Shown: in pieces, positions 16,677 through 47,511 of the stretch
Numbering within the stretch: the first letter of the stretch is position 1
Layout: each line of letters starts with the position of its first letter
Assembly: GCF_017813395.1 (NCBI RefSeq)
Contig: NZ_JAGIZB010000001.1
Coordinates: forward strand, 394,341-458,340
DNA from: Pararoseomonas baculiformis
GTDB taxonomy: Bacteria > Pseudomonadota > Alphaproteobacteria > Acetobacterales > Acetobacteraceae
DNA: 64,000 nucleotides
Reading direction: 5' to 3'
Translations under genes and position numbers: made by a program
Notes under the pieces: generated by a model
Told to the model about the DNA's origin: nothing
Database searches by the model: none
The model's input: the letters and a program-made list of their open reading frames with translations, nothing else

Positions 16677-16755
16677 GAACGGGGTCTCCGGATCGGGAAT
16701 GTGGCGCGGGACGGTTTACGCCCGGCCGATCGCGTGGCTAACATCGCAGCAAGCG

Positions 16756-16761
16756 ACTATA
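16756..16761 (-). promoter_or_regulatory. Probable -10 box of iclR
   Basis: On the reverse strand this reads TATAGT, five of six matches to the sigma-70 -10 consensus, 79 bp upstream of the iclR start codon. The -35 region is a poor T-run near 16779-16785. The palindrome at 16764-16778 fills the spacer. Confidence 0.5.
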
Positions 16762-16763
16762 GC

Positions 16764-16778
16764 ATTCGCACAGCGAAT
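16764..16778. promoter_or_regulatory. Candidate IclR operator, site 1 (iclR / OYE intergenic)
   Basis: A perfect palindrome ATTCGC-ACA-GCGAAT between two divergent genes, 87 bp from the iclR start and 74 bp from the OYE start. It is the best copy of a motif seen five times in this block. Binding by the adjacent IclR protein is inferred from position. Confidence 0.65.
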
Positions 16779-16852
16779 AAAAAAGAGCTGGATTGTCCCT
16801 TCCTCCGTGCCGCGCCCAGGCGGCGGGAAGGGCGGGAGGAAAGATCACGCCC

Positions 16853-18028
16853 ATGCCGCAGGCCCCCCTGCTCTTCGAGCCGCTTGCGCTGCGTGGCCTC
16901 ACGCTGCGGAACCGGATCGTCCTCTCCCCCATGCTGACCTATGCCGCCGAGCGGGGCCATGTCACGGATTGGCACCTGATGCACCTGGGGAAGTTCGCCG
17001 CCGGCGGCACCGGGCTGGTCTTCATGGAATCGACCAAGGTGGATCCGCGCGGCTGCACCACGCCGCGCGATCCCGGGCTCTGGAAGGATGAGTTCATCCC
17101 CGGGCTGGAGCGGATCACCCGCTTCGTCAAAGGGCATGGCGCGGCAATCGGACTGCAGCTCGGCCATTCCGGCCGCAAGGCCCGCAACTCCGTGCCCTGG
17201 GAAGGGCGCGCCCCCCTGGCCAGCCACCCCGGGCTGGACGACGGGGCGGAGTGGGAGCTCGTGGCGCCCAGCGCCATCGCGGCCAGCCCCGCCGCCGCGG
17301 TCCCGCGCGCCCTGAGCATCCCCGAGATCCAGGACATGGTCGCGTGCTGGGGCGCCGCCGCCAGCCGTGCCCACCGCGCCGGCTTCGACGTGCTGGAGGT
17401 GCATGGCGCCCATGGATACCTGCTGCACCAGTTCCTGTCCCCCGCCGCCAACCGGCGGGAGGACCGATATGGCGGCAGCCCTGAGAACCGGATGCGCTTC
17501 GCGGTGGAGGTGGTGGAGGAGGTGCGCCGCCACTGGCCGGCCGAGAAACCCCTGTTCTTCCGCGTCTCCGCCATCGATGAGGATGGCGGCTCGATCGAGG
17601 AGACGGTGGCCCTCTGCCGCGTGCTGCGCGCCAAGGGGGTGGATGTGATCGATTGCAGCTCGGGCGGCATGACGCCCCGCTCCATCGTCGATCCGGCGGA
17701 CCGGCCGGGCTATGGCTACCAGGTGCCCCATGCCGCCCGCGTGCGGGCCGAGGCCGGGATCGCCAGCATGGCGGTTGGGCTGATCGTGCATGCCGACCAG
17801 GCCGAAGCGATCCTGCAGCAGGGCAGCGCGGATCTCGTCGCGATCGGGCGCGAGATGCTGCACAACCCGAACTGGTCGCTCGACGCCGCCCAGAAGCTGG
17901 GCGTCGGCAACGCCTTCGCCGCGATCCCGCCAGCCTATGGCTACTGGCTCGAGAAGCGCGACAGCGCCGGCTTCGGCGGGCGTCCCTCCACCTGGCAGGC
18001 CGGCATCGAGCCGGCCCGCGCCCCCTAG
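16853..18028 (+). CDS. NADH:flavin oxidoreductase, Old Yellow Enzyme family
   Basis: A 391-residue single-domain FMN TIM-barrel enzyme. The N-terminus LFEPLALRGLTLRNRIVLSPM is the OYE opening; GLQLGHSGRKA, EVHGAHGYLLHQFLSPAANRREDRYGGSPENRMRF and the C-terminal phosphate-binding VAIGREMLHNPNW follow. It lacks the Fe-S and FAD domains of 2,4-dienoyl-CoA reductase. OYEs reduce activated C=C bonds of enones or enoates; the exact substrate is unknown. The ATG at 16853 follows GGGAGGA. It is the first of three close genes (OYE, SMP-30 lactonase, CoA-transferase), likely controlled through the palindrome at 16764. Confidence 0.92.
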   Translation: MPQAPLLFEPLALRGLTLRNRIVLSPMLTYAAERGHVTDWHLMHLGKFAAGGTGLVFMESTKVDPRGCTTPRDPGLWKDEFIPGLERITRFVKGHGAAIGLQLGHSGRKARNSVPWEGRAPLASHPGLDDGAEWELVAPSAIAASPAAAVPRALSIPEIQDMVACWGAAASRAHRAGFDVLEVHGAHGYLLHQFLSPAANRREDRYGGSPENRMRFAVEVVEEVRRHWPAEKPLFFRVSAIDEDGGSIEETVALCRVLRAKGVDVIDCSSGGMTPRSIVDPADRPGYGYQVPHAARVRAEAGIASMAVGLIVHADQAEAILQQGSADLVAIGREMLHNPNWSLDAAQKLGVGNAFAAIPPAYGYWLEKRDSAGFGGRPSTWQAGIEPARAP

Positions 18029-18046
18029 CGCCAGGAAGGCGAGCCC

Positions 18047-18934
18047 ATGCCCAAACTTCCGCAACCCGAGATCGAGGTGGCACACCAGGGCGGCGACCTC
18101 GTCGGGGAATGCCCGATGTGGCACCCCGTGGAGCAGCGCCTGTACTGGGTGGACACGCGCCGCCCCTCGCTGCAGCGGCTGGAAACGGACGGCACGGCCC
18201 GCCGCTGGCCCATGCCCAGCAATATCGGGTCCTATGTCTTCCGCCAGGGCGGCGGCGTGCTGGCCGGGCTGAAGCAGGGCTTCGCCACCATCGACCTGGA
18301 AACCGGCGCGATCACGCCCGTCCTCGATCCCGAGCCCGACCGGCCGGAGAACCGCCTGAACGACGGCCGTTGCGACCGGCGCGGCCGCTATTGGTGCGGC
18401 TCTCGCGATCCCGGGGACGAAAACCCGGGTGGATCGCTCTACCGGCTCGATCCGGGCTTCTCCTGCGAGCGGATGGATACGGGCTTCATCGTCTCCAACG
18501 GCATGGCCTTCAGCCCGGATGACCGGACGCTGATCTTCGGCGACAGCCGCGGCGAGACGATGTGGCGCTACGACCTGGACATGGAGTCCGGGCGGATCAG
18601 CAACAAGCGCGTCTTCCTCTCCACGGCCGGCCTGCCCTGGCGCGTGGACGGCGCCACCTTCGATGCGGAAGGATATTACTGGTGTGCCCTGATCGGGGAT
18701 GGCGCGGTCGGGCGCTTCGATCCGGAAGGAAGGCTGGACCGCATCGTGCGGTTGCCCGTCTCCCATCCGACCATGTGCAATTTCGGCGGGCCGGATCTCG
18801 ATGTGCTCTACGTCACCTCCGGCACCGTCTTCCTGAACGAGGTGGAGCGGGCGCGGCAGCCCCTGGCCGGCGCGGTCTTCGCGCTGCGCGGGCTGGGCGT
18901 GCGCGGCGTGCCCGAGCCGTTCTTCGCAGGATAG
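18047..18934 (+). CDS. SMP-30/gluconolactonase family hydrolase
   Basis: A 295-residue six-bladed beta-propeller. The divalent metal ligands of the family are visible: Glu in VGECPMWHP (about 20), Asn in FIVSNGMAFSPDD and Asp in WRVDGATFDAEGYYW. Members hydrolyse sugar lactones or other lactones in the cytoplasm. It starts 18 bp after the OYE stop and is followed 8 bp later by a CoA-transferase, so it is in one operon. In this context it may open a lactone formed from the pathway acid rather than a sugar lactone; that is inference. Confidence 0.92.
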   Translation: MPKLPQPEIEVAHQGGDLVGECPMWHPVEQRLYWVDTRRPSLQRLETDGTARRWPMPSNIGSYVFRQGGGVLAGLKQGFATIDLETGAITPVLDPEPDRPENRLNDGRCDRRGRYWCGSRDPGDENPGGSLYRLDPGFSCERMDTGFIVSNGMAFSPDDRTLIFGDSRGETMWRYDLDMESGRISNKRVFLSTAGLPWRVDGATFDAEGYYWCALIGDGAVGRFDPEGRLDRIVRLPVSHPTMCNFGGPDLDVLYVTSGTVFLNEVERARQPLAGAVFALRGLGVRGVPEPFFAG

Positions 18935-18942
18935 GGCGGTTG

Positions 18943-20166
18943 ATGAACGATCTTCCCGGGACCATCGCGACGGCGGAAGGGGGCCCTCTCCAGGGGCTTC
19001 GGGTGCTCGACCTGTCCCGCCTCGTCTGCGGCAATGTGCTGACCATGCTGCTCGGTGATTTCGGCGCCGAGGTGGTGAAGGTGGAGGAACCGGGGCCGGG
19101 CGACCCGCTGCGCGCCTGGATCGCCGATGGGGTGAGCGCCCATTGGAAGGTCTATGGCCGCAACAAGCGCAGCATCGCGCTGAACCTGCGCAGCCCCGAG
19201 GGGCGCGCGGTGCTGGAGCGGCTGATCGCCCGGGCCGATGTGCTGGTGGAAGGCTTCCGCCCGGGCACGCTGGAGCGCTGGGGCCTGGGGCCGGAGCTGC
19301 TGCTGCAGCGGCACCCGGATCTCGTCATCCTGCGCATCTCGGGCTTCGGGCAAACGGGCGCCTACCGGATGCGGCCGGGCTATGGCTCGCTGATCGAGGG
19401 CCTGTCCGGCTTCGCCTCGCGCAACGGCTTCGCTGACCGCCCGCCCCTGCTGCCGAGCTTCCCGCTGGCCGACATGGTCGCGGGAATGATGGGCGCCTTC
19501 GCCACGGTCACGGCGGTGCGGGCACGGGAAGCCGGCGGCCGCGGACAGGTTGTCGATCTTTCGCTGCTGGAACCGATGGTCGCAATGTTCGGGGCCGACG
19601 CGCTGCTCCAGGGGCTGACGGGCACGGTGCGTGGCCGCACCGGCAGCCGCGGCAGCTCCGCCGCGCCGCGCAACACCTATCGTACGGGTGACGGAAACTG
19701 GCTGACCATCTCGGCGCCCATGCAGTCCATGGCCGAGAAGCTGTTCGACGCGATGGGGCACCCCGAGATGAAGCGCGACCCGCGCTTCGAGACGAACAGC
19801 GCGCGCATGGCGAATGTGGAGGCGCTCGACGCCGCGATCACCGCCTGGCTCGCCTCGCGCAGCGCAGCGGAGGCCTGGGCGACGCTGGACGCGGCAGGCG
19901 TGACCGCCGCCCCGATCTACGACGCGGCGCAGCTTGCCTCCGATCCGCATGTCGTTTCGCGCGGGGTGTTCCGCACGGTGGCGGACACGGAGCTGGGCAA
20001 GGTGGTGATGCCGGATGTCACGCCGCGCCTCTCCGCCACGCCCGGATCGGTGCGGCGCCCCGCCCCGGCCGTGGGAGGGGACAGCCGGGCCATCCTGGCC
20101 GAGGCGGATTACGACGAGGCCGAGATCGCCGCCCTGATCGCGTCGGAGGTGGTGGCAGAGGGCTGA
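18943..20166 (+). CDS. CaiB/BaiF family (family III) CoA-transferase, copy 1
   Basis: A 407-residue family III CoA-transferase. The CoA-binding opening [42 protein letters not shown] is typical, as are NKRSIALNLRSPEGR, ADVLVEGFRPGTLERWGLG and the stretch LPSFPLADMVAGMMGAF, whose Asp is the expected catalytic carboxylate. It moves CoA between carboxylates, so here it probably activates an imported acid. Third gene of the OYE operon. A second, clearly different copy is at 27149. Acid specificity cannot be predicted. Confidence 0.93.
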   Translation: MNDLPGTIATAEGGPLQGLRVLDLSRLVCGNVLTMLLGDFGAEVVKVEEPGPGDPLRAWIADGVSAHWKVYGRNKRSIALNLRSPEGRAVLERLIARADVLVEGFRPGTLERWGLGPELLLQRHPDLVILRISGFGQTGAYRMRPGYGSLIEGLSGFASRNGFADRPPLLPSFPLADMVAGMMGAFATVTAVRAREAGGRGQVVDLSLLEPMVAMFGADALLQGLTGTVRGRTGSRGSSAAPRNTYRTGDGNWLTISAPMQSMAEKLFDAMGHPEMKRDPRFETNSARMANVEALDAAITAWLASRSAAEAWATLDAAGVTAAPIYDAAQLASDPHVVSRGVFRTVADTELGKVVMPDVTPRLSATPGSVRRPAPAVGGDSRAILAEADYDEAEIAALIASEVVAEG

Positions 20167-20231
20167 AGGAAGCGCGGCCCGCCGAGCTGCGCGAAGACAT
20201 CTGTAAGCAGAAGCGCGTCAAGCAAATGAAA

Positions 20232-20247
20232 GGGGCCCTAAGGCCCC
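20232..20247 (+). terminator. Short hairpin in the leader of the Bug gene
   Basis: GGGGCC-CTAA-GGCCCC, a 6-bp GC stem, lies 65 bp after the CoA-transferase stop and 19 bp before the Bug start. There is no T-run. It could attenuate read-through between the two genes or only mark the mRNA. Confidence 0.35.
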
Positions 20248-20265
20248 GCCAAGGGAGAGAAGCGC

Positions 20266-21228
20266 ATGAAGAACATCCTGGGGGCGATCCTCGGAACAGC
20301 CCTTTGCGTCGCGGCCTGTGGCGGGGCGGCGGCGCAGCCCGCCGCGCCCTATCCGGACCGCCCGGTGCAGATGGTCGTCTCCTGGCAGGCAGGCGGCGTG
20401 GTGGACACCATCGGGCGGGCCCTGGCGCAGGCGATGTCGGACCTGTCCGAGGGACGCTTCGTGGTCATCAACCGCGACGGTGCCTCCGGCATCGTCGGGG
20501 CCCAGGCGGTCTCCAGCGCAAGGCCCGACGGCTACACCATCGGCTTCGGCCCCATCACGCCCATCACCACCGCTTCCCATACCGTGCGCGGCGTGCCCTT
20601 CACGGTCGATTCCTTCGAATATGTCTGCAAGGTCTTCGAGAACGTCCTTGCCGTGAGCGTGGCGGAGACATCGCCCTTCCGCAGCATGCCCGAGCTCATC
20701 GCGGCCATCCGTGCACGGCCGGACACGATGACCTATGGGCATTTCGGCACCAACAGCCTGGGGCACATCTCCTTCGCCAACATCGTCCGCGGCCTGTCGC
20801 TGCGCGTGACCGACGTGCCCTTCCGCGGAGAGACGCCGATCTATCCGGAGATGCTCAGCGGCCGGCTCGATTTCGGCATGGGCACGGTGGGCGGCGCGCG
20901 GGGCAAGCCGGTGCGCCTGCTCGCCGTGTTCGGGGACCAGCGGAGCGCCGCAGCGCCGGATGTCCCGAGCACGCGCGAGCTGGGTCTGCCAACCCTCCAG
21001 CCGGTCCTCTCCGGCATCACCGTGCCGCGTGGCACGCCGGCCGCGATCACGGAACGGCTTGAGACCCTGTGCCGCCAGGGCACGGAGGAGAGCTCCTTCC
21101 GGACCGTGATGGGCCGGCTCGGCGAGCCGATCCTCTATGCCGGGCAGGAAGCCTTCACCGCCCAGGCGCGGCGCGACAATGCCGAGAAGATCGAGGTCGT
21201 GCGCGCCCTGGGCCTCGTTCCGCAATAG
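20266..21228 (+). CDS. Bug family tripartite tricarboxylate transporter receptor
   Basis: A 320-residue periplasmic solute receptor with an N-terminal signal (MKNILGAILGTALCVAACGG...). An AACG sequence inside the signal may be a lipobox, which would make this a lipoprotein, unlike most Bug proteins. The mature part opens YPDRPVQMVVSWQAGGVVDTIG and has ARPDGYTIGFG and VPFRGETPIY, all Bug marks. It follows the CoA-transferase by 99 bp in the same direction and probably imports the acid processed by this operon. No cognate TctA/TctB is present. Confidence 0.9.
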   Translation: MKNILGAILGTALCVAACGGAAAQPAAPYPDRPVQMVVSWQAGGVVDTIGRALAQAMSDLSEGRFVVINRDGASGIVGAQAVSSARPDGYTIGFGPITPITTASHTVRGVPFTVDSFEYVCKVFENVLAVSVAETSPFRSMPELIAAIRARPDTMTYGHFGTNSLGHISFANIVRGLSLRVTDVPFRGETPIYPEMLSGRLDFGMGTVGGARGKPVRLLAVFGDQRSAAAPDVPSTRELGLPTLQPVLSGITVPRGTPAAITERLETLCRQGTEESSFRTVMGRLGEPILYAGQEAFTAQARRDNAEKIEVVRALGLVPQ

Positions 21229-21230
21229 GC

Positions 21231-21253
21231 GGGCCGGGGCACCGCCCCGGCCC
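21231..21253. terminator. Bidirectional hairpin between Bug and HMG-CoA lyase genes
   Basis: A perfect 10-bp inverted repeat GGGCCGGGGC-ACC-GCCCCGGCCC sits directly between two convergent stop codons (21228 and 21258). Confidence 0.6.
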
Positions 21254-21257
21254 CTCC

Positions 21258-22214
21258 TCAGGCAGCCTGGCGGAAGGCGTCCAGGCTGCCGGCATGGATC
21301 AGCTCGCTCGGCAGCTGGTGGCCGACGATGGCTTCCGCCATGCGCCCGACCTCGATCAGCGCATCGAGATCCACCCCGGTCTCGATGCCCATCTCGTGGC
21401 AGAGCAGCACCAGCTCCTCCGAGCAGATATTGCCTGCCGCCCCCTTCTGCCCGGCGAAGGGGCAGCCGCCCAGGCCGCCGACGGTTGCATCGAACCGGTC
21501 GATGCCCATCTTCAGCGCGGCATGAGCATTGGCGACCGCGAGGCCCCTGGTGTCGTGCAGGTGCAGCGTGATGTTCTTCTCGGGCCAGCGTGCGCGCACC
21601 TCGCCGATCACGCGCTCGATCCGCCCCGGCATGGCCCAGCCCATCGTGTCCGCCAGCGAGAAATCGGTGATCTCGGCCCCGGCCTCGGCGGCGATGGCGA
21701 GGCCATCCTCCAGCGTGCTGATCACCTGCGCGGGCGTGATGTCGCCCTGGTAGTTGCAGCCGAAGGCCGCCATCACGCCGATGCGGCGGACCGGCACGCC
21801 ATGGGAGAGGTGGAGCGCGGTCTGCTTGCGCATGGCCGCGAGGTTCTCGGCATGGGTACGGTTGAGGTTTTTCTTCGTGAAGCCCTCGGACGCCGTCAGC
21901 GAGATAGATCCGGCGATGGTGAGCTTGTCGCGGAAGGCCAGCGCGCGGTTCAGGCCGCTCTCATTGAACCACAGCGCGGTGTAGCGCACACCCGGCTTCG
22001 CCCTGAAGCCGGCAACCGTATCCTCGGCGTCGGCCCAGCCCGGCACCACCTTCGGGCTGACGAAGGAGCAGACCTGGATGTGGTCGAGCCCGGTCTCGGC
22101 CAGCGCCTCGATCAGGCGGATCTTGTCGGCGGTCGCGATCGGCCCCGGCTCGATCTGGAAGCCCTCGCGCGGTCCCTCCTCCTGGATGTGAACGCGCTTC
22201 GGAAGGTCGGACAT
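21258..22214 (-). CDS. Hydroxymethylglutaryl-CoA lyase family protein
   Basis: A 318-residue TIM-barrel lyase of the HMGL-like family. The N-terminal EEGPREGFQIE (family DGxRDGxQ), the metal-binding HLHDTRGLA and the signature GGLGGCPFAGQKGAAGN with the active-site cysteine are all visible. True HMG-CoA lyases cleave HMG-CoA to acetoacetate and acetyl-CoA; close relatives cleave citramalyl-CoA or other 3-hydroxy-3-methylacyl-CoAs. Given two CoA-transferases and hydratases nearby, a related acyl-CoA is plausible. Start taken at the ATG at 22214; an upstream in-frame ATG exists but has no better ribosome site. Divergent from the Bug gene at 22432. Confidence 0.88.
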   Translation of the reverse strand: MSDLPKRVHIQEEGPREGFQIEPGPIATADKIRLIEALAETGLDHIQVCSFVSPKVVPGWADAEDTVAGFRAKPGVRYTALWFNESGLNRALAFRDKLTIAGSISLTASEGFTKKNLNRTHAENLAAMRKQTALHLSHGVPVRRIGVMAAFGCNYQGDITPAQVISTLEDGLAIAAEAGAEITDFSLADTMGWAMPGRIERVIGEVRARWPEKNITLHLHDTRGLAVANAHAALKMGIDRFDATVGGLGGCPFAGQKGAAGNICSEELVLLCHEMGIETGVDLDALIEVGRMAEAIVGHQLPSELIHAGSLDAFRQAA

Positions 22215-22350
22215 GGAAGTGTTCCCCGTGTTCTTGCGCCGCATGCCTGGAGCCGGTGACGCGGCAGGATCCGCCCTGATGCCGGAACGGGCCGCGCAAG
22301 GCCATTGAACACTCCGCACCAAACAAGGCAATCTGAATTTCAAACAGCCT

Positions 22351-22365
22351 ACTCGTCCCGCGAAT
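22351..22365. promoter_or_regulatory. Candidate operator, site 2 (HMG-lyase / Bug intergenic)
   Basis: ACTCGT-CCC-GCGAAT; the right half is identical to site 1, the left half differs at two positions. It is 66 bp upstream of the Bug start and 136 bp from the lyase start. Confidence 0.5.
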
Positions 22366-22431
22366 GAAAGCGGGCGGGAGACGCCGAAGCATCCATCGAA
22401 GGATGCGCGGCCATCAGGAGAGGACGCCCTC

Positions 22432-23409
22432 ATGCTCAACCGACGCAACCTCGTGGCCCTGGCGGGCCTCGCCGGCCTGGGACATGCCGCAGGAGCCCAG
22501 GCGCAGGCGGAGGCCTTCCCCAACCGCCCGATCCGTCTTGTCGTGCCCTACACGCCCGGTGGTTCGGTGGATCTGATGGCGCGGGCCTTCGGGACGCGCT
22601 TCTCGCAGGTCACGGGGCAGCCGACGGTGGTGGAGAACCGGCCAGGCGCTTCCACCATGCTCGCCACGGAGTATGTCGCGCGCGCGACGCCCGATGGATA
22701 CACGGTCCTGTCCGGCGGCACGCAGCTCGCGCTGATGCCGCATCTGGGAACACGTACCCCCTATGACCCGGACCGCGACATCGTTCCCGTGGCGGTGCTC
22801 ACCATCGTGCCCTATCTGCTCGTGGTGAACCCCTCGCTTCCTGTGCGCACCGTGAAGGAGCTGATCGCCTATGCGAAGCAGCGGCCGGGGGAACTGAACT
22901 ACGCCTCCTTCGGCGTGGGCGGCGCCGGGCACCTGGCGGCCGAGATGTTCAACATGCTGACCGGCGTCGAAAGCGTGCATATCCCCTATAACGGCACGGC
23001 CCCCGGGCTGAACGACGTGATGGGCGGGCGCGTGGCCATGAGCTTCTGCACCATCCCGCCCGCCATCCCCGCCATCGAGGCCGGGCGCCTGCGCCCCCTT
23101 GGCCTGACGGGAACGCAGCATCTTTCCGCGCTGCCCGGCGTGCCCACCATCGAGGAAGCCGGCGTGCCGGGCTATGAATGCGTGAGCATGAACGTGATGT
23201 TCGCGCCAAGCGGCGTGCCGGCGGACCGCCTGCAGCGCCTGAACGAGGCCGTGACGACGGCGCTGCGCGAGCCCGAACTGCGGAAGCTGCTGGAGGAGCA
23301 GGGATTCGTTCCCGCCGAGCCGATGAACCCGGCCCAGACCAAGGTCAGCTTCGACACCTCGGTCGCGAAGCTAGTCCAGATTATCAAGAAGGCCAATATC
23401 CGCACCTGA
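22432..23409 (+). CDS. Bug family tripartite tricarboxylate transporter receptor
   Basis: A 325-residue periplasmic receptor. Signal peptide about 1-26 (MLNRRNLVALAGLAGLG..., cleavage near AQAQA). Mature part opens FPNRPIRLVVPYTPGGSVDLMAR, with VVENRPGAS, TPDGYTVLSGG and IPYNGTAPG. This is a standard Bug protein, binding an unknown carboxylate. It is divergent from the HMG-lyase gene and shares a control region containing operator site 2, so it is likely co-induced with the pathway. It is a monocistronic unit ending at a strong convergent hairpin. Confidence 0.93.
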   Translation: MLNRRNLVALAGLAGLGHAAGAQAQAEAFPNRPIRLVVPYTPGGSVDLMARAFGTRFSQVTGQPTVVENRPGASTMLATEYVARATPDGYTVLSGGTQLALMPHLGTRTPYDPDRDIVPVAVLTIVPYLLVVNPSLPVRTVKELIAYAKQRPGELNYASFGVGGAGHLAAEMFNMLTGVESVHIPYNGTAPGLNDVMGGRVAMSFCTIPPAIPAIEAGRLRPLGLTGTQHLSALPGVPTIEEAGVPGYECVSMNVMFAPSGVPADRLQRLNEAVTTALREPELRKLLEEQGFVPAEPMNPAQTKVSFDTSVAKLVQIIKKANIRT

Positions 23410-23422
23410 CGCGGAACACGCG

Positions 23423-23454
23423 CCGCGGGGCCGGCCTGTGCGCCGGCCCCGCGG
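23423..23454. terminator. Strong bidirectional hairpin between Bug and acyl-CoA dehydrogenase genes
   Basis: A perfect 13-bp, all-GC inverted repeat with a 6-nt loop (CCGCGGGGCCGGC at 23423-23435, partner at 23442-23454) between convergent stops at 23409 and 23463. It is the strongest such hairpin in the window. Confidence 0.7.
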
Positions 23455-23462
23455 AAAGCGGT

Positions 23463-24668
23463 TCAGGCCACGCGCCGCTCGGGCTCCGCGGCCACCGGCT
23501 CCACCGGAACGGGCTGGCCGAGAACGACATGGCCGGGGCGGTCGATCAGCGCTTCCGCGATCCGTGCGCGATGCTCATAGGTCGTGCCGAGCCGCATGCC
23601 CCAGGCGGCCACGCGCCGGTACCAAAGGTGCAGGTCCAGATCCATCATGAAGCCGATGCCGCCATGGATGATCTGCGCGTTGCGCGCCGAGGCCAGGCAC
23701 TTCTCGTTGCAGAAGGCCTTTGCCTGCGACACCTCGACGCTGTGCGGCAGCCCCTCATCCATGCGCCACAGCGCCTCACAGGTGAGTAGCTCGCCGCCAT
23801 CGATCCAGATGACCATGTCGGCGCACATATGCTGGATGGACTGGAAGGCACCGATCGGCTGGCCGAAGGCCTCGCGCATCTTGGCATAATCGATCGCCAG
23901 CTCGGCATCCTTTCGCGCGGCGCCCAGCATCTGGGCGCAGAGCAGGGCCGTCGCCCTGTCCAGCATGCGCTCGACGATCGGCCATGCCTCGTCCGCGCGC
24001 CCGATCATGTTCGCGGCGGGAACACGGACCTGGTTGAAAAGGACCTCGCTCTGCTTGTCCTTGGCCGTCGTCACGAGCGGCGTCTGCGAGATGCCGTCGG
24101 ACTTCGTATCCACGATGAAAAGCGATAGCCCCGCGTTGCTGCCGCGCGCCGGCGCCGTGCGGCAGACGACGAGGCACTTGTCCGCGGCGACGAAGTTGTC
24201 CACGAACATCTTGCGGCCCGAGAGGACATAGTCCCCCCCCTCGGCAGTGGCGGTCATCGTGACCGCTTCCGGCCGTGCACGCGGATCCTCCTCGGCGAAG
24301 GCCCAGGTCAGCACCTGCTCCCCGGCCACCACCGCGGGCAGGATGGCCTCGCATTGCGCCCTGGTGCCGGCCTCGGCGATCGTCAGCGCGGCCACGCAGG
24401 TGCTGTGCAGCGGAAGCGGCGCGACGGCGCGGCCGACCTCCTGCAGGATCAGGCCGAGATAGACCAGCGGCATTTCGGAACCGCCATAGGCCTCGGGAAG
24501 CGAGATTCCCTGCCAGCCCAGCTCCGCCGCCTTGCGCCAGAGGTCGGGGGGATAGCCGAGCGGGTCGGCCTCCATGGCACGCACGAGCTGCGGCGGGCAT
24601 TCCCCGTCCAGGAAGCTTCGCGCCGATGTGCGCACCATTTCCTGTTCGTCGGTCAGCAGGACATCCAT
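23463..24668 (-). CDS. Acyl-CoA dehydrogenase family protein, subunit-like copy B
   Basis: A 401-residue flavin dehydrogenase with the three-part family fold: helical N-terminus (LLTDEQEMVRTSARSFLD), central beta domain (LTWAFAEEDP..., GGDYVLSGRKMFVDN) and C-terminal helices (REAFGQPIGAFQSIQHMCADM, QIIHGGIGFMMDLDLHLWYRR). The central motif TWAFAEEDP replaces the usual xTEPxAGSD, so FAD or substrate contacts are unusual. It follows the other dehydrogenase by 40 bp. Such unequal pairs often form heteromers in which one subunit is catalytic; that is suggested, not shown, here. Last gene of the leftward cluster. Confidence 0.9.
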   Translation of the reverse strand: MDVLLTDEQEMVRTSARSFLDGECPPQLVRAMEADPLGYPPDLWRKAAELGWQGISLPEAYGGSEMPLVYLGLILQEVGRAVAPLPLHSTCVAALTIAEAGTRAQCEAILPAVVAGEQVLTWAFAEEDPRARPEAVTMTATAEGGDYVLSGRKMFVDNFVAADKCLVVCRTAPARGSNAGLSLFIVDTKSDGISQTPLVTTAKDKQSEVLFNQVRVPAANMIGRADEAWPIVERMLDRATALLCAQMLGAARKDAELAIDYAKMREAFGQPIGAFQSIQHMCADMVIWIDGGELLTCEALWRMDEGLPHSVEVSQAKAFCNEKCLASARNAQIIHGGIGFMMDLDLHLWYRRVAAWGMRLGTTYEHRARIAEALIDRPGHVVLGQPVPVEPVAAEPERRVA

Positions 24669-24708
24669 GTCAGTGGTCCATCATCCCGTTCTGTCTGGGG
24701 CGGTGCGT

Positions 24709-25950
24709 CTAGTTGCCCGCGGCCTTCTGCCGGCGCGGGCCCGGCATGCCGAGGCCGCGGCGCGCCACCTGGTCCCGCATGATCTGGACGCCGCCATGAT
24801 TGACGCCCGACTGGAAGGCACCGAGGACGTTATGCGCGAAGACGCCCTCCTCCACCGCATGCGGGGAGCCCCTGAGAAGCTGCGCATAGGGCCCGAGCAT
24901 CTGCGTGATGGCTTCCGTGGTGCGCACGCCGTGCTCCGGCGCCCACACCTTCTCCGCCGCGCCCTCATAGCTGAAATCGCGGCCGCGCTGGACGATGGAC
25001 ATGCTGCGCATCGTCATCAGGCGGCAAACCTGCGCCTCGGTCCAGAGCTCCGCCACCTTGTCGCGGATCGCGGGGTTGTCGGCATACCCCTCGAGCCTCG
25101 TCTCCTTGAGCCAGTTGACGATATCCTCGTCCCGCCGGACGGACATGACGTAGCGGAAGGCGCCGACCCGATCGAGGTTCAGCCCGTCCGCCGCCACCTT
25201 CCAGCCCTTGTTCTCCCCGCCCAGCAGCGTGCTCTCATGCACGCGCACATTGTCGAAGAAGGTCTCGTTCGTCCGCGCCTCGCCATAGGTTGTGCCCAGC
25301 GGCGCGCGGGGATTGTTCTGGATGGACCAGAGCGGGCGCACGGTCACGCCCGGCGTGTCCAGCGGGAAAATGAAGATGGACAGGCCCTCGCGCTTCGGCA
25401 GCGTGGGGTCGGTGCGCGCCATCAGGTAGATATGCGTCGAGAGATGGCCCGAGGTTGTGTAGATCTTCTGGCCGTTGATCACGAAATGGTCGCCATCCCG
25501 TGTCGCGCGGCAGCGGAGGCCGGCGAGGTCCGCGCCCGCCTGCGGCTCGGTAAAGCCAAGGGCGAAGGTGATCTCGCGGCTGATGAGCCGGGGGATGTAG
25601 TAGCGCTTCTGCTCCTCGGTGCCGGCGGCCATGATCGCCGGCGCGCCGCTGCCGCTGAGGCTGATGTTGAGGCCGACCCGCATGAAGGCCTCCTCGACGA
25701 TGTACTGGCTGATGCGGTCGCCGCCCTGGCCGCCATATTCCTTCGGATAGGCGATGCCGAGCCAGCCGCGGTCAAGAAGCTTGCGGTAGAGTTCCCGCAT
25801 ATGGGAGCCGAAGGGGTCGCCCGTTCCCCCGCGCATCACGTCGTCCTGCGCTTCCTTGTCCCGGAGCACATCGGGCGTGACATGCTCCTGCACGAAGGCC
25901 TCGACCTGCCTCCGCAGTTCTTCCTGTTCAGGCGTGTATCCGAAGTTCAT
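24709..25950 (-). CDS. Acyl-CoA dehydrogenase family protein, subunit-like copy A
   Basis: A 413-residue acyl-CoA dehydrogenase. It begins MNFGYTPEQEELRRQVEAF and keeps the standard FAD/substrate motif ALGFTEPQAGADLAGL, then HFVINGQKIYTTSGHLS and a helical C-terminal domain. It oxidises acyl-CoA to 2-enoyl-CoA, passing electrons to ETF. With copy B it forms a likely heteromeric pair. It lies 157 bp downstream of the MaoC genes and has its own palindrome (26015-26029) 64 bp before its start, suggesting a promoter here. Chain length or branching of the substrate is unknown. Confidence 0.92.
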   Translation of the reverse strand: MNFGYTPEQEELRRQVEAFVQEHVTPDVLRDKEAQDDVMRGGTGDPFGSHMRELYRKLLDRGWLGIAYPKEYGGQGGDRISQYIVEEAFMRVGLNISLSGSGAPAIMAAGTEEQKRYYIPRLISREITFALGFTEPQAGADLAGLRCRATRDGDHFVINGQKIYTTSGHLSTHIYLMARTDPTLPKREGLSIFIFPLDTPGVTVRPLWSIQNNPRAPLGTTYGEARTNETFFDNVRVHESTLLGGENKGWKVAADGLNLDRVGAFRYVMSVRRDEDIVNWLKETRLEGYADNPAIRDKVAELWTEAQVCRLMTMRSMSIVQRGRDFSYEGAAEKVWAPEHGVRTTEAITQMLGPYAQLLRGSPHAVEEGVFAHNVLGAFQSGVNHGGVQIMRDQVARRGLGMPGPRRQKAAGN

Positions 25951-26014
25951 GGCATTTCCCGCTATGGGAGGTCAGGAGGCCTGGCCCTCGTTGCGCACCG
26001 GCCTTGCCGCCGTT

Positions 26015-26029
26015 ATTCGCAGAGCGACT
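26015..26029. promoter_or_regulatory. Candidate operator, site 3 (upstream of acyl-CoA dehydrogenases)
   Basis: ATTCGC-AGA-GCGACT; differs from the site 1 half-sites at one position. It is 64 bp upstream of the acyl-CoA dehydrogenase start, inside the 157-bp gap that separates it from the MaoC genes. Confidence 0.55.
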
Positions 26030-26107
26030 GCTCTATTCTTGGCATCACGGTAGGCGCGCGGGTCCTGGCCGGTCAAGGAATTCACCGGTTCCTGGGATCC
26101 GGCGGCC

Positions 26108-26596
26108 TCAACCGGATGTGGGGGGCACGAAGGGATAGGGAACGGCCGGGCGCCCCCGATAGGGCAGGGCGACCACGGCGGAACCCGGCGTGGATTCAAC
26201 GCCGTTCTCGTTGGTGATGCCGACGTCAAGCTCGACCAGCCCGTAATCCGGCGTTTCCTGCTTGCCTGTCACCTTCGCCCAGATGGAGAGCCTTTCGCCG
26301 GCGAGGTTCATCGCCCGGAACTGGAACCGGACCTTCCAGGCCCAGCCCTCGCGCCCCGCCCATTCCTTCAGGAGCTGCGCGATGAACTGCTGCTTGAGCG
26401 AACCGTTGATGAGCAGGCCCGGAAGCTTGTCATGCCCCGTCGCGAAGGGCTGGTCGTAATGGATCTTGTGCCAGTTCTCCATCGCGGCGGACCAGCGCAT
26501 CAGATGCGGCGTGGTGAGGGGCCCCTTGCCGAGCGGGGCGACCATGTCCCCGATGGAGACGTCCTCGAAATCCAGTCTCTCGCGCATGCTGCTCAC
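26108..26596 (-). CDS. MaoC-like hotdog dehydratase, C-terminal-type half
   Basis: A 162-residue single hotdog-fold protein. The segment LTTPHLMRWSAAMENWHKIHYDQPFA holds the hydratase-2 type helix with the Asp/His pair (H-x-D), and LLINGSLKQQFIAQLLKEWAG follows. R-hydratases of this kind add water to trans-2-enoyl-CoAs. Its ATG overlaps the stop of the other MaoC half by 4 bp, so the two are made together and probably form one heterodimeric hydratase. Start may alternatively be the ATG four codons in (MRERLDF). It acts logically after the acyl-CoA dehydrogenases. Confidence 0.85.
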   Translation of the reverse strand: MSSMRERLDFEDVSIGDMVAPLGKGPLTTPHLMRWSAAMENWHKIHYDQPFATGHDKLPGLLINGSLKQQFIAQLLKEWAGREGWAWKVRFQFRAMNLAGERLSIWAKVTGKQETPDYGLVELDVGITNENGVESTPGSAVVALPYRGRPAVPYPFVPPTSG

Positions 26597-27111
26597 CGCC
26601 GGATGATGGTCTTGCGCGCGCGCAGCAGCAGCTGGCCCGCCTCGGTCGTGAATTCGGTTTCGATGATCACGAGAAGCATCGGGCCTGACCGCGTCTCCTT
26701 CTCCTGGATATCGGCATACCGGGACTTTTGGAGCACGCGCTCGCCATGCCGCGCATAGGCGAAGAACTCCACCTCCGCCCCGCCGTTCAGCAGCGCGAGG
26801 CCGTGCAGCGGAAGCTCGGGCAACCCGTTGCCCACGCCCATGACGATGCCATCGAAGTCAGGATCATGCGCGCGTTCGGTCAGCACGTCCGGTGCGCCGA
26901 AGGGGGTGCGGAACATGAAGGAGGGATAGAGGGGCGGGGCAACCGCGCCGCCGTAGCGCGCGCCCGCCTCGGCCGACGCATAGGCAGGGTCGGGGTCCAT
27001 GATGGCCTGGGCGTAGCGGCGCACCGCGCCGGGCTCTATGGCGTCGCAGGCCAGGAAGGGCTCGCCCTCCCGCCCGATATAGGCTCGCACCTCGTCCGTC
27101 AGCAGCGGCAT
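26593..27111 (-). CDS. MaoC N-terminal-type (FAS1-like) dehydratase half
   Basis: A 172-residue protein of the FAS1-like dehydratase domain family: GREGEPFLACDAIEPGAVRRYAQAIMDPDPAYA at the start, then APPLYPSFMFRTPFG and GGAEVEFFAYARHGERVLQKSRYADIQEKETRSGPMLLVIIETEF. In related pathways this half lacks the catalytic H/D pair and shapes the substrate site of a heterodimer with the catalytic MaoC half, encoded immediately downstream with a 4-bp overlap. It lies 37 bp after the CoA-transferase gene, so the three form one operon. Confidence 0.85.
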   Translation of the reverse strand: MPLLTDEVRAYIGREGEPFLACDAIEPGAVRRYAQAIMDPDPAYASAEAGARYGGAVAPPLYPSFMFRTPFGAPDVLTERAHDPDFDGIVMGVGNGLPELPLHGLALLNGGAEVEFFAYARHGERVLQKSRYADIQEKETRSGPMLLVIIETEFTTEAGQLLLRARKTIIRR

Positions 27112-27148
27112 TCCGGATCCATCCTCCCGTTCATTCCCGCCCTGGCGC

Positions 27149-28384
27149 CTATCCGGCCTGCCGGGGCAGGTCGCCCTCGCGCCAGCCTTCGTCGAGGCCG
27201 ATCACGCCACGCGATGCCAGCGCCTCGATCTCCGCCTCGGCATAGCCGACCGCACGCATGACCTCGGCCGTGTGCTGGCCAAGCCGCGGCGGCGGGAGGG
27301 CTATCGCAGCCGGCGTCTCGCTGAGCTTCACCGGCAGCCCCGCCATCCGCATGGCGCCGAGGCCGGGCAGGTCGATTTCCGCCACCATCTCGCGGGCCGC
27401 TACCTGTTCCTCGGCCACCACCTTGTCCAGGCGGTTGATCGGGCAGCACGGAACCTCGTTCGCCTTCAGCAGGACTTCCCACTGCGCGACGGGCTTCGTC
27501 GCCACAACGCCGCCGATCAGCCCGATCAGCTCGGCCCGGTTGGCAACCCGGCGCGCCGCATCGCTGAAGCGCGGGTCATCCACCCATTCCGGCCGCTCCA
27601 GCGCCGCGCAGAGGCCGCGCCACATGCGCTGGTTGAAGGCGGAGATGACGATCCAGTCGTCAGCCGCCTTGAAGGCCCGGTAGGTCGGGCTGGTGAGGGC
27701 GCCGCTGCCGCTCGGGCCCGGCACCTCGCCGGAGGCGAAATAGCGTGTCACGAAATGCGCGAGCATCGACATCTGGCCTTCGAGCAGCGAGGTGTCCACG
27801 CGCTGCCCACGCCCGGTCCGGTGCCGCGCCTCCAGGGCCATCATCACGCCGATCGTGCCGAGCATCCCGGCACCGATATCCGCCACCGACATGCCCATCT
27901 TCACCGGGCCGCCGCCTTCCTCCCCGGTGATGCTCATGCCGCCCGCATAGGCCTGCATGAAAAGATCGTTCGCCGGCTCCGCAGCCCGCGGACCGCTCGC
28001 GCCGAAGCCGCTGATGGAGCAGTAGATGAGGCGCGGATTCTCGGCCTGCAGGCTTTCCCAGTCCAGGCCGGCGCGGGCCAGGGCGCCGATGCGGTAATTG
28101 TCCACCAGGATATCGGCGCCCGCGATCAGCCGGCGCGCGACGGCGGCGCCCTCGGCGGATTTGAGGTCCAGCGCGACACTGCGCTTGTTGCGGTTCGCCG
28201 AGCCGAAATAATAGCCCATGGCGCCGGAGAAATGCGGCGGCCAGGAGCGGCTGTCATCGCCCGCGCCCACGCGCTCGATCTTCACCACCTCCGCACCGAA
28301 GTCGCCCAGCGTCATGGCGCAGAAAGGGCCGGCCATGGCGACGCCGACCTCGATCACGCGAAGTCCGGCCAGCGGCCCGCTCAT
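27149..28384 (-). CDS. CaiB/BaiF family (family III) CoA-transferase, copy 2
   Basis: A 411-residue family III CoA-transferase: [76 protein letters not shown], and [14 protein letters not shown] with the expected catalytic Asp. It is a different subfamily from copy 1, closer in feel to acetyl-CoA or succinyl-CoA dependent transferases acting on dicarboxylic or hydroxy acids, but this is a guess. It heads the leftward operon CoA-transferase, MaoC-N, MaoC-C. Its upstream region carries operator site 4 and a weaker tandem copy. Confidence 0.93.
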
Positions 28385-28475
28385 CGGAAACGCCGCAGGA
28401 TGCAGGTCGCGGGCAGCCTTTGCTGGAACAAGCTCTTCTCCCGGTGCCAGGGCCGCCGCGCCGGCAACCCGCTTT

Positions 28476-28490
28476 ATTCTCTGTGCGAGT
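28476..28490. promoter_or_regulatory. Candidate operator, site 4 (upstream of CoA-transferase copy 2)
   Basis: The reverse complement reads ACTCGCACAGAGAAT, two mismatches from site 1 with the same ACA centre. It is 91 bp upstream of the CoA-transferase start. A weaker similar element (TCTCGC-ATA-TCGAAA) follows at 28496-28510, so this may be a double site. Confidence 0.55.
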
Positions 28491-28556
28491 TATTCTCTCG
28501 CATATCGAAAAGGTTATAAGCGGATCGCCGGCCTGTAAACCGCAAAGCGCCGCAGG

Positions 28557-29918
28557 TCAGGCAGCGCGGGCCAGTTCCTTCGCCGCGCCCAGGGATGCGA
28601 TGCCGTTCAGCCTTTCGAACAGCGCCTCCGCGCGCGCGCCCTCGCCGGCGGCAGCCAGGCAGTCCATGAACTTCGCCCGCAGCTCGGCATCGCTCAACGG
28701 AAGTGTCGCGTGCCCGCGGGCCCGGCGCACGGATTCCTCGATCTGCTCGCCGCTGCGTAGCCGGACGCGAACAACATCCGCTGGAGCGTAGCCGGGCAGG
28801 TTGGGATCCGCCTCGTCGGTTGGGATGACGGTGACGCGCCGCATGAGGGCCTGCACATCGGGGCGCTGCACGAAACCGTCGGACAGTTCCACCAGCCCGA
28901 CCTTCCCGGCGATCAGCGCGCAGGCCATGTCGAACTGCGCGCTGAACTTCGCCTCCAGCCCGGTCTGGGGCAGCGCGTTGCGCAGCACGGCGGCATGGGC
29001 GCGGCTGATCACCACCTCGATCGCCTCCACGTCCTCCGCCCGGATCGGGCGGCGGGCGACAAGCGCCAGCATCGCGTCCGTCGCGCGGTGGCCGCAGTAG
29101 CAGATCGGGAACTTCTTGATGCTCAGCCCGTGCTCAAGGATCCGGAACTCGCTCCCGAAGCCCGGGTTCGGGCCATCGAGATTCAGCGTGCGGCCACGCG
29201 GCGAGATGGCATAGAGGAAGCCGCGCGGATGCTCGATGGCGTCGAGCGAGGCCGTCATCCCGGCCCCGGCCAGGCGCGCAGCCATCACGCCCGCATGGGC
29301 CGACCGCCCGGCATGGAAGGGCTTGGTCATCGTGCCGAAATTGGCACCCAGCCCGGCGCTCTGGGAGGCGCCCAGCGCGATGGCCTGCGCGGCCGTATCC
29401 GCATCCAGCCCGCGAAGCCGGGCGCAGGCGGCGGCGGCACCGACCGCGCCGAACACACCTGTCGGGTGCCAGCCCTTTTCGTGATGGTAATCCTGGTCAT
29501 GCGCGGTCAGCTCCGCCCACACCTCGTATCCGGCCACATAGGCCGCGACCATCTCGGCACCTGTCGCGCCGAGCGCCTCCCCCTCGGCCAGGATCGCGGG
29601 CACCAGCACGGTGCTGGGATGGCCGCGCAGCGCGACGTCATCATAGTCGAGCGCATGGGCGGCCGTGCCGTTGATCCAGGCCGCCTCCGGGGCTGGCGCG
29701 CGCAGCGGGCCGAAGGTGAGGGCCGCCTCGCCCTTCGGCCCGGCCACGCCGAGCGTGTCGCGAAGGATGCCGACCACCGGTTCGTCGCGGCCGGCGATCA
29801 TCACGCCCACGCAATCCACGAAACCGGTGCGCGCGACCGACGCCGCCTCCGCCGGGATGGCCTCGGGCCGCAAGCCGCTGACGAAGGCGCCGAGCGCCCG
29901 GGTGATGGAGCCGCTCAT
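28557..29918 (-). CDS. MmgE/PrpD family protein, copy 1
   Basis: A 453-residue MmgE/PrpD protein: ITRALGAFVSGLRPEAIPAEAASVARTGFVDCVGVMIAG at the start, WINGTAAHALDYDDVALRGHPSTVLVPAILA, WHPTGVFGAVGAAAACARL and FGTMTKPFHAGRSAHAGVMAARLA. Family members include 2-methylcitrate dehydratase and cis-aconitate decarboxylase, and dehydrate or decarboxylate tri- or dicarboxylic acids. The start ATG at 29918 matches the family N-terminus; the frame continues upstream to 30323 without family-like sequence. It is divergent from a second family member, with an operator-like site between them. Confidence 0.92.
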   Translation of the reverse strand: MSGSITRALGAFVSGLRPEAIPAEAASVARTGFVDCVGVMIAGRDEPVVGILRDTLGVAGPKGEAALTFGPLRAPAPEAAWINGTAAHALDYDDVALRGHPSTVLVPAILAEGEALGATGAEMVAAYVAGYEVWAELTAHDQDYHHEKGWHPTGVFGAVGAAAACARLRGLDADTAAQAIALGASQSAGLGANFGTMTKPFHAGRSAHAGVMAARLAGAGMTASLDAIEHPRGFLYAISPRGRTLNLDGPNPGFGSEFRILEHGLSIKKFPICYCGHRATDAMLALVARRPIRAEDVEAIEVVISRAHAAVLRNALPQTGLEAKFSAQFDMACALIAGKVGLVELSDGFVQRPDVQALMRRVTVIPTDEADPNLPGYAPADVVRVRLRSGEQIEESVRRARGHATLPLSDAELRAKFMDCLAAAGEGARAEALFERLNGIASLGAAKELARAA

Positions 29919-30300
29919 CGGATCAGCCCTCCCGGCCGCGATCGGGGACGGCGTCCCCATCCGGCCGCACCCGGCATTGCGTGGTTGGGCCGAGCGTCTT
30001 CGCGGCATGGCGCATGACCGGGCTTCCTCCTGTGCCGCCTGGACCTGTGCCGCCCGGGCCGGCGCGGGGCGCGATGCGCCTCCGGGGCAGCAAAAATCGC
30101 AGTGCGAATGAGATATTTGTTGCCTCAGGGCTACTCCCGGTCCATGCAGGGGGTCAAGAACTGCTTGGCGCATGTCCGGCGCCATTCCGGGAAACGGAAG
30201 GCAGCACAGAGGAAACGGGGACTCGGGTGACACCGACAATGGTTGCGGAGCGCCGCCTGGCGCTGCTTGCCACCCTGCATGGCAGCGGGGCGGCCCGGCG
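29919..30300. other. 382-bp control region between divergent MmgE/PrpD genes
   Basis: This gap holds operator site 5 (30095-30109) in a short AT-richer patch (about 30090-30125), the best place for promoters here. Farther right is a 21-codon frame at 30239-30304 whose TGA overlaps the TTG proposed as start of MmgE/PrpD copy 2. The frame of copy 2 is open back to an ATG at 30172, so the exact start is unsettled. No other element was seen. Confidence 0.5.
30095..30109. promoter_or_regulatory. Candidate operator, site 5 (between MmgE/PrpD genes)
   Basis: AATCGC-AGT-GCGAAT; one mismatch to each-half symmetry of site 1. Located 176 bp upstream of copy 1 and 62 bp upstream of the earliest possible start (ATG 30172) of copy 2. 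Confidence 0.55.
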
Positions 30301-31665
30301 TTGAGCGCGGCGGCCACGCCCACGCGTCAACTCGCCGCCTTCGTGGCAGGGCTCGATGCGGCCCGGGTCACGCGGGCGGAGCGGGAGCTTGTCGCGCGCG
30401 CGATCCTCGACACCGTCGCCGTCGGCATCGCCGCGCGGGACGAACCGGCCGCGCGCCTCGCCATGCTCCGGGCCAAGCAGCAGGGGAAGGGCCCTTGCAC
30501 CCTCTGGGCCGCGGGTGAGGCGACCGGCGTGCGGGAGGAGGAGGCAGCCTGGGCGAATGGCGTCATCGCCCATGTCCTCGATTTCGACGACGTCACCTCG
30601 GTCATGCGCGGCCACCCCTCGGTCGCGATGCTGCCGGCGCTTCTCGCCCTGGCCGAGGCGGAGGCGCTGTCGGTCGAGGACGTCACCATCGCCTATGCCG
30701 CGGGCTTCGAGGTGATCGCCGCGCTGTCGGTGTCCATGGCCGCGCCGCATTACGCGAAGGGCTGGCACAGCACGGCAACGATCGGCGCGATCGGCGCCGC
30801 GGCGGCCTGCGCCCGGCTCCTGCGGCTCGACGCCATCTGCACGGCGCATGCGATCGGCCTGGCCGTCACCCAGGCGGCGGGCACGCGCGCCAGCTTCGGG
30901 ACCATGGCGAAGTCGGTGCAGGCCGGGAACGCCAACCTTGCCGGGCTGCGCGCCGCGCGCCTGGCCCAGCTGGGCTTCGACGCGGCGCCGGAGGCGCTGG
31001 ACGGCGCCATGGGCTTCGCAAGCCTTGGCGGCGGCGCGCTGGTCCTGCCCGCCCTGGGCGGCGCCCTTCTCCGGCACGGGCTGGAGGTGAAGAAATACCC
31101 GCTCTGCTACGCCACCCACCGCGCGCTGGACGCGGTGCTGGACCTGCGCGCAGCGCATGGGCTGGGCCTGGCCGATGTGGCGGCCGTGCATGTGCACGCC
31201 TCGCCCGGCGCCCTGGCGCCGCTCATCCACCACCGGCCGGCAACCGGCCTCGATGCCAAGTTCTCCATGGAATACGCGATGGCAGCCGCGCTGGCGGATG
31301 GCGCGCCGCGCCTTTCGACCTTTTCGGACGCCGCCGTGCGGCGGCCGGCGCTGCAGGCCTTCCTCCCCCGCGTCACGGCCGACGAGGCCGAGGGCGCCCT
31401 GCTGCCGCGCTGGGCGGAGGTTTCGGTGCGGCTCCTGGATGGCCCCGTGCTGTCCCTGCGCCGGCATGCGCTGCGCGGCGGCGCCGAGGATCCGCTGAGC
31501 CGCGCCGAGCTGCTCGCCAAGGCGGAGGACTGCCTGGTCCATGGCGGCGGGATGGCGGAGGGGGCGGCGGCGCTGCTCTCCGCGATGGAGGATCCGGCCC
31601 GCGGGGCGGGCGATGCGTTGCGCGCCGGCCTGCTCAGCGGCGCCGTGCTGGAGGAGACGACCTGA
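30301..31665 (+). CDS. MmgE/PrpD family protein, copy 2
   Basis: A roughly 454-residue MmgE/PrpD protein: TRQLAAFVAGLDAARVTRAERELVARAILDTVAVGIAA, WANGVIAHVLDFDDVTSVMRGHPSVAMLPALLA, WHSTATIGAIGAAAACARL and LEVKKYPLCYATHRALDAVL. It is paralogous to copy 1 but clearly diverged. The TTG at 30301 is chosen because it gives the family-like N-terminus; an in-frame ATG at 30172 would add 43 low-complexity residues. Its TGA overlaps the ATG of the following Bug gene by one base (TGATG), so receptor and enzyme are translated together. That coupling ties this enzyme to an imported acid. Confidence 0.88.
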   Translation: MSAAATPTRQLAAFVAGLDAARVTRAERELVARAILDTVAVGIAARDEPAARLAMLRAKQQGKGPCTLWAAGEATGVREEEAAWANGVIAHVLDFDDVTSVMRGHPSVAMLPALLALAEAEALSVEDVTIAYAAGFEVIAALSVSMAAPHYAKGWHSTATIGAIGAAAACARLLRLDAICTAHAIGLAVTQAAGTRASFGTMAKSVQAGNANLAGLRAARLAQLGFDAAPEALDGAMGFASLGGGALVLPALGGALLRHGLEVKKYPLCYATHRALDAVLDLRAAHGLGLADVAAVHVHASPGALAPLIHHRPATGLDAKFSMEYAMAAALADGAPRLSTFSDAAVRRPALQAFLPRVTADEAEGALLPRWAEVSVRLLDGPVLSLRRHALRGGAEDPLSRAELLAKAEDCLVHGGGMAEGAAALLSAMEDPARGAGDALRAGLLSGAVLEETT

Positions 31666-47079: not shown

Positions 47080-47511
47080 CTATTCCGGCAGCACGGCGCA
47101 GGTGAGGCGGGAGACGCAGGCCAGGCGGCCATTCGCCCGGCGGATCTCGGTCTGCCAGACCTGGGTGGTCCGGCCGGTGTGGAAGGGGCGGCACTCGGCC
47201 GTGACCGTTTCCCCCTCCGGCACCGCTGCGAAGTGGTTGGCGTTGATCTCGATGCCCACGACGCGGAACCCCTCGGGCACCGCGAGGAAGGAGGCGGTGC
47301 TGCCCAGGGTTTCCGAGATCACGGTGGAGATGCCGCCATGCAGCACGCGCCAGGGCTGCACGTGGCGATGATCCACCGGCATGGTGGCGCGGAGATAATC
47401 CGGCCCGATCTCGGTGAAACGCAGGCCCAGATGGCCATGCGCGGTATCGCCGGAGCGGGCGTTCAGCTCCTCCGGCGTGGCGGTCTTCTTCCAGATCGGG
47501 GCGGTGCTCAT
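47080..47511 (-). CDS. Hotdog-fold thioesterase (PaaI/YdiI-like)
   Basis: A 143-residue hotdog protein: GHLGLRFTEIGPDYLRATMPVDHRHVQPWRVLHGGISTVISETLGSTAS, where the HGG helix and the Glu in SETLGS match the EntH/YdiI type (Glu as catalytic base). It hydrolyses acyl-CoA thioesters, for example in salvage or proofreading. Its start overlaps the stop of the upstream MATE gene by 4 bp (ATGA), so the pump and thioesterase are co-translated. Substrate unknown. Confidence 0.9.
   Translation of the reverse strand: MSTAPIWKKTATPEELNARSGDTAHGHLGLRFTEIGPDYLRATMPVDHRHVQPWRVLHGGISTVISETLGSTASFLAVPEGFRVVGIEINANHFAAVPEGETVTAECRPFHTGRTTQVWQTEIRRANGRLACVSRLTCAVLPE

Follow-up and report, generated by a model that had tools for sequence, protein, structure and literature searches.

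Five oriented three-box elements outline a predicted IclR-family regulon in a catabolic gene block of Pararoseomonas baculiformis

Gene block and palindromes

We analysed a 64,000-nucleotide stretch of the Pararoseomonas baculiformis genome (referred to as "the window"), which contains a 16.8-kb block of predicted catabolic genes headed by a gene for an IclR-family regulator. This gene, iclR (15843–16676, minus strand), encodes a protein of 277 amino acids from a TTG start codon that is common to three relatives. Rightward from iclR, the block continues on the plus strand with oye (old yellow enzyme), sgl (SMP-30 lactonase-like), caiB1 and bug1 (16853–21228), which, on the basis of gene order and spacing only, probably form one transcript from a predicted oye promoter. 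Next are hmgl, an HMG-CoA-lyase-like gene to which no operator of its own is assigned (21258–22214, minus strand), bug2, encoding a TctC/Bug-type receptor (22432–23409, plus strand), and two acyl-CoA dehydrogenase genes, read leftward as acad2 then acad1 (23463–25950, minus strand). The right part of the block consists of caiB2 (CoA-transferase) with two small hydratase-like frames, maoC2 and maoC1 (26108–28384, minus strand), prpD1 of the MmgE/PrpD family (28557–29918, minus strand), and prpD2 with bug3 (30301–32633, plus strand), beyond which lies hrcA.

Among solved structures, the top match of CaiB2 is succinate-hydroxymethylglutarate CoA-transferase, and that of the hmgl product is HMG-CoA lyase; the top matches of PrpD1 are IDS-epimerase and IRG1/cis-aconitate decarboxylase, and those of the oye product are NADH:flavin oxidoreductases. 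The maoC2 product matches Pfam FAS1_DH_region and that of maoC1 matched no Pfam family, "MaoC" and "hydratase" being our own labels. Read from gene names and best matches, the enzymes point to a pathway in which a small di- or polycarboxylate would be taken up and then undergo CoA transfer, desaturation, hydration and cleavage of the HMG-CoA-lyase type. The 157-bp gap at 25951–26107 corresponds to a place, between acad2 and maoC1, where four relatives (G005, G012, G014 and G008) have a further Bug-type receptor gene. A 25-codon frame at 30227–30304 ends overlapping the prpD2 start (TTGA); a frame of equal length is present at the corresponding position in G005, G012 and G014 (GTGA or TTGA overlap), and it is possibly a coupled leader peptide.

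The initial annotation described five copies of the palindrome ATTCGC-N3-GCGAAT, and a letter check confirmed all five, at 16764 (no mismatch), 22351 (two), 26015 (one), 28476 (two) and 30095 (one). Gene calls made in our analysis bear out their intergenic position. The proposed distance of 62–92 bp to a start codon holds for four sites; for the fifth, at 30095, it had been measured to what is probably the wrong gene (see below). The further statement that the rest of the window has no comparable copy has to be qualified: a palindrome at 47131 has a single mismatch, and it gives no match to the three-box profile described below. We would read the open minus-strand frame around this copy as a hotdog thioesterase, a reading with no family search behind it.

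As a bare motif, the palindrome is common. Counted at ≤3 mismatches, it is not overrepresented in the 64-kb window (22 found, 31 expected), and at ≤2 mismatches the whole 5.25-Mb genome holds 163 matches per strand (46 for a control read backwards), so the bare palindrome was rejected as a genome-specific signal. These two counts favor the reading that the five copies are chance palindromes in a GC-rich genome, picked by eye. The genome-wide rate for ≤2 mismatches, without adjustment for intergenic base composition, predicts 0.52 palindromes for the 16.8-kb block and 0.043 for the 1,388 intergenic bases within it; the five that are present far exceed this rate (Poisson 2e-4 and 1e-9, respectively).

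A third half-site and predicted promoters

When sites are aligned by target gene, a third half-site ("box3") is seen upstream of the palindrome at a gap of 5 bases; it is oriented like box2 and lies on the palindrome side facing away from the target gene. By sequence, each of the five palindromes is the core of a longer, oriented element, box3-N5-box1-N3-box2. A half-site matrix built from boxes 1 and 2 was applied to 28 sites at offsets of 0–20 bases, on both sides and in both directions; the window prpD1 site was oriented partly by box3 and the other 27 by gene alone. A gap of 5 is the unique peak, with a mean score of +2.7 bits and 22 of 28 sites positive; none of the other offsets and directions tested has a mean above −6.1 bits or more than 6 positive sites of 28. 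In the window, four of the five third boxes have a positive score; that of bug2 is negative, and the bug2 box3 is weak in three relatives as well. At 28476 we initially suspected a further complete palindrome at a distance of 20 bp, but rejected it for want of a fourth box: at the expected place (upstream 14, ATTCGC direction), 1 of 28 sites was positive, and the layout is not that of tandem palindromes 18–22 bp apart.

We scanned the 110 bp upstream of each of the 28 palindromes with a simple sigma70 matrix whose weights we chose. The predicted promoter ends 4–11 bases before box3 across the 28 sites (5–9 bases in the window), and scores average 12.8, versus 10.3 in shuffled sequences (largest null mean 10.9). 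Taken singly, 17 of 28 reach p ≤ 0.05, including all those of oye (6/6), acad2 (4/4) and caiB2 (6/6); the weak classes are prpD1 (1/5), bug2 (0/6) and bug1 (0/1).

In the window, the predicted oye operator (16753–16778, plus strand; GCGACT-N5-ATTCGC-N3-GCGAAT) is preceded by a predicted promoter, TTTACG-N18-TAACAT (16715–16744, plus strand), that ends 8 bases before box3 (p below 1/300 versus shuffles). For bug2, the predicted operator (22340–22365, plus strand; TCAAAC-N5-ACTCGT-N3-GCGAAT) follows TTGAAC-N18-CAATCT (22305–22334, plus strand) by 5 bases; this promoter has a poor −10 and is not significant alone (p 0.10). The predicted acad2 operator (26015–26040, minus strand; AAGAAT-N5-AGTCGC-N3-GCGAAT) lies 6 bases beyond TTGACC-N18-TACCGT (26047–26076, minus strand; p below 1/300 versus shuffles), and that of caiB2 (28476–28501, minus strand; GCGAGA-N5-ACTCGC-N3-GAGAAT) lies 9 bases beyond TTTACA-N17-TAACCT (28511–28539, minus strand; p 0.007).

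The palindrome at 30095 had been taken as a site of the rightward PrpD gene. This assignment was rejected, as box3 and the predicted promoter both point left, and the fifth palindrome most likely serves the leftward prpD1; by eye, the site aligns with the prpD1 operators of relatives. Its predicted three-box operator (30095–30120, minus strand; ACAAAT-N5-ATTCGC-N3-GCGATT) is the window's top match with the profile of the relatives, and the predicted promoter, TTGACC-N18-TAGCCC (30128–30157, minus strand), ends 7 bases before box3; it is not significant alone (p 0.14) and aligns with relatives by eye. No three-box operator was found in the window for prpD2 and bug3. A second operator for prpD2 was considered and rejected, there being one weak profile match (6.0 bits) in relatives and none in the window. 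Toward prpD2, at ~110 bp from their prpD1 operators, G005, G012 and G014 have a further palindrome with two mismatches (L036 2355, L037 16879 and L038 2644), where the window has none at ≤3 mismatches.

Conservation and specificity of the element

Synteny of the block is retained in G005, G012 and G014; G008, Plastoroseomonas arctica and G203 have it in rearranged form, and G019, G099 and G397 have part of it. Comparison with orthologous loci, suggested in the initial annotation as a check, came out in its favor. Among 33 regions upstream of oye, bug2, acad2, caiB2 and prpD1 (5 from the window and 28 from relatives), all 33 contain the palindrome at ≤3 mismatches; 30 contain it at ≤2, and comparison with dinucleotide shuffles gives p ≤ 0.05 for 30, counts that are not independent because the genomes are related. 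At control starts in the window without a predicted operator, the palindrome at ≤3 mismatches was present in none of six. Of the genomes represented twice (L030/L036 and L031/L038), one copy was used. Left out of the 33 were P. arctica prpD1 and bug1, the bug1 genes of G203 and G008, which do have operators, G099 oye and prpD1, upstream of which there is no evident operator, and the G019 block genes except caiB2. The element also moves with the genes: bug1 carries its own palindrome copy in G008 and G203, and in G019, G099 and G397 the site is in the caiB2–iclR region instead of the iclR–oye region. In G099 and G397, whose regulators are 54–57% identical to that of the window, this caiB2–iclR copy has two mismatches and is accompanied, by eye, by a similar promoter and a third box. 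In G019, hmgl has a copy with three mismatches.

We built a 26-position profile from 23 operators of relatives, with no window sequence in training. In the 64-kb window, all 10 matches at E ≤ 10 fall on the five sites. The best read is on the target gene's strand at 30095, 16754, 28476 and 22341; at 26015, the target strand gives 8.8 bits, slightly less than the 9.2 bits of a partial match on the wrong strand. The conservation in relatives argues strongly against chance palindromes, and the third box and the restriction of window profile matches to the five sites point the same way; we regard a chance origin as scarcely credible.

In the whole genome, where 150 of 347 candidates were scored, the profile gave two matches at E ≤ 10, both in the block. 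We also fitted a degenerate three-box pattern to the five sites; in the 5.25-Mb genome it matches five places, namely the five sites themselves, each on the target gene's strand, and its reversed control matches none. With one mismatch allowed, the pattern finds 12 places, 7 of them outside the block (control, 3); these seven may be chance or further regulon members. They include G000:C21:16240-16264, which holds ACTCGCCTAGCGAAT.

Sixty relatives were scanned with a cut-off of E ≤ 1 and 128 candidates scored in each. Of 34 matches, 20 are in the six regulator-bearing genomes, all of them in the block and all training sites except two (window prpD1 and G008 caiB2). Ten same-genus genomes without the regulator gave no match at this cut-off among the 128 candidates scored in each; the remaining 14 matches are in 10 of the other 44 genomes without it, the best, at 15.2 bits, being equal to some real sites. 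In held-out sequence, all six profile matches in 40 kb of G203 fall on the three sites that precede oye, bug2 and bug1, and in G099 and G397 three of seven fall in the caiB2–iclR region and four elsewhere. The G008 acad2 and caiB2 sites, both outside training, were also found by the profile.

The regulator and its predicted mode of action

The product of iclR belongs to the IclR family, with Pfam HTH_IclR and IclR_C matches over the cut-offs (PF09339, 45.6 bits versus 22; PF01614, 69 bits versus 24). Its best NCBIfam match is the PcaR/PcaU/PobR model TIGR02431, at 129.2 bits versus a cut-off of 284.75; by sequence, the regulator is related to this subfamily but is not filed there. Orthologues at ≥50% identity occur in 6 of 60 relatives, and any match at E ≤ 1e-40 in 10 of 60; across 397 genomes of the family, matches reach E ≤ 1e-65 in 10. 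CaiB2 at ≥66% identity is found in the same six genomes as the regulator, with a 44% match in one more; the HMG-CoA-lyase-like family has a broader distribution (21 of 60). Ten orthologues share the recognition helix, LPQPTVWRLCHTM, unaltered even where identity falls to 52%, and seven relatives at 34–37% identity have a different helix; in this comparison, L026 repeats L021, and the second regulator of G019 was not seen apart. G019 carries a tandem pair of iclR copies (L043 12383–13899), with identities of 54% and 50% to the iclR of the window, and the Azoarcus loci L033 and L034 have only a 36–37% regulator.

With 16 IclR_C matches in the genome, the sites could instead belong to another IclR protein, and the adjoining iclR would then be incidental. 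We consider this improbable. One site lies in the iclR–oye control region, and in G019, G099 and G397 a site lies in the caiB2–iclR region; moreover, the regulator co-occurs with the block, and recognition helix and motif are conserved together. The initial proposal that one regulator, most simply the IclR protein encoded at 15843, controls five transcripts is thus supported by sequence conservation at orthologous and rearranged loci, by the co-occurrence and conserved helix, and by membership of the site in a known class of IclR motifs.

Several features of the element have counterparts in described systems. The motif listed for PcaR of Corynebacterium glutamicum, an IclR-family regulator of protocatechuate genes, is GTTCGC-N3-GCGAAC (Table 1, PMC8222616); it shares the core TTCGC-N3-GCGAA with the sites described here, whereas its outer letters are G..C rather than A..T, and the third box present here is absent from the Table 1 listing. 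The consensus of the 23 operators, ATTCGCN3GCGAAT, contains the core TYCRY-N3-RYGRA of the published IclR group 1 motif, GKTYCRYW3-4RYGRAMC, and its outer letters match none of the four listed group 1 subgroups (such as WTT-11-AAW). Three-box sites are described for 32 IclR orthologous groups, including PcaU (PMC8222616); as in the window, these sites combine an inverted pair with a third box, the directions alternating. The box3–box1 spacing, counted in letters, is that of the published second arrangement (TGRAACAN1-2TGTTYCA), with different letters at the spacer ends, so the element falls in the three-box class, with bug2 box3 weak. The comparison with the 32 groups covered site layout, which is also in line with the additional half-site of PcaU, PobR and HmgR. 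Lastly, the IclR repressor PheR of Sphingobium sp. SHPJ-2 acts on a catabolic promoter, where its footprint spans −21 to +23 relative to the start of transcription (PMC13273656). The sites in the window resemble it in their placement, here relative to a predicted start; unlike them, PheR has the key motif GCAACG, a single operon and phenanthrene as effector.

Our preferred reading, which we consider probable, is that the five three-box elements are operators of the IclR protein and that this protein would repress transcription from the predicted oye, bug2, acad2, caiB2 and prpD1 promoters. Because each predicted promoter ends just before box3, transcription would start at or just before this box, and bound protein would cover about +1 to +26. 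A dimer or tetramer on the three half-sites would block initiation or early elongation until released by a pathway metabolite, and the genes would stay off until substrate appears. Start-site repression is the likely mode, given that the predicted sigma70-type promoters end 5–9 bases before the window operators. The oye operator may also act on iclR itself: a possible iclR −10 (TATAGT, 16756–16761, minus strand), predicted by eye, lies within its spacer and box3, so self-repression is plausible.

PcaU and PobR are activators, and the best NCBIfam match of the regulator, below cut-off, is to the model that includes them. The same IclR protein might accordingly act on the same three-box sites as an activator or dual regulator. 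The IclR family includes both kinds, and an extra direct half-site is described for PcaU, PobR and HmgR (PMC8222616). However, the operators are downstream of the −10 of promoters that are themselves predicted, a place suited to blocking, and the region from −21 to +23 is covered by a repressor in the case of PheR (PMC13273656). We therefore consider an activating or dual role unlikely, and repression remains the reading we adopt.

A literature search, with most subscription journals outside its scope, returned no paper on a Roseomonas IclR regulon or on an IclR regulator with these enzymes. In our judgment, and as far as the cited sources extend, the motif core, the three-box layout and start-site repression are each already known for IclR regulators, and the regulon itself is new. 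We judge it a well-supported regulon, with binding and repression predicted. In this way, five palindromes found by hand lead to a regulon that can be tested, complete with regulator, oriented operator, predicted starts and gene list. More tentatively, a single IclR repressor may govern the whole of an undescribed, branched di-/polycarboxylate or lactone pathway from at least five polar three-box operators at the transcription start; the side of box3 would tell which gene is controlled, and the operators would mark the extent of the pathway, having followed its genes through rearrangements. Since operator copies stay with genes after rearrangement, as for bug1 in G008 and G203, they suggest which enzymes cooperate, and they offer a handle for finding the substrate of a CoA-dependent pathway in Roseomonas-type bacteria.
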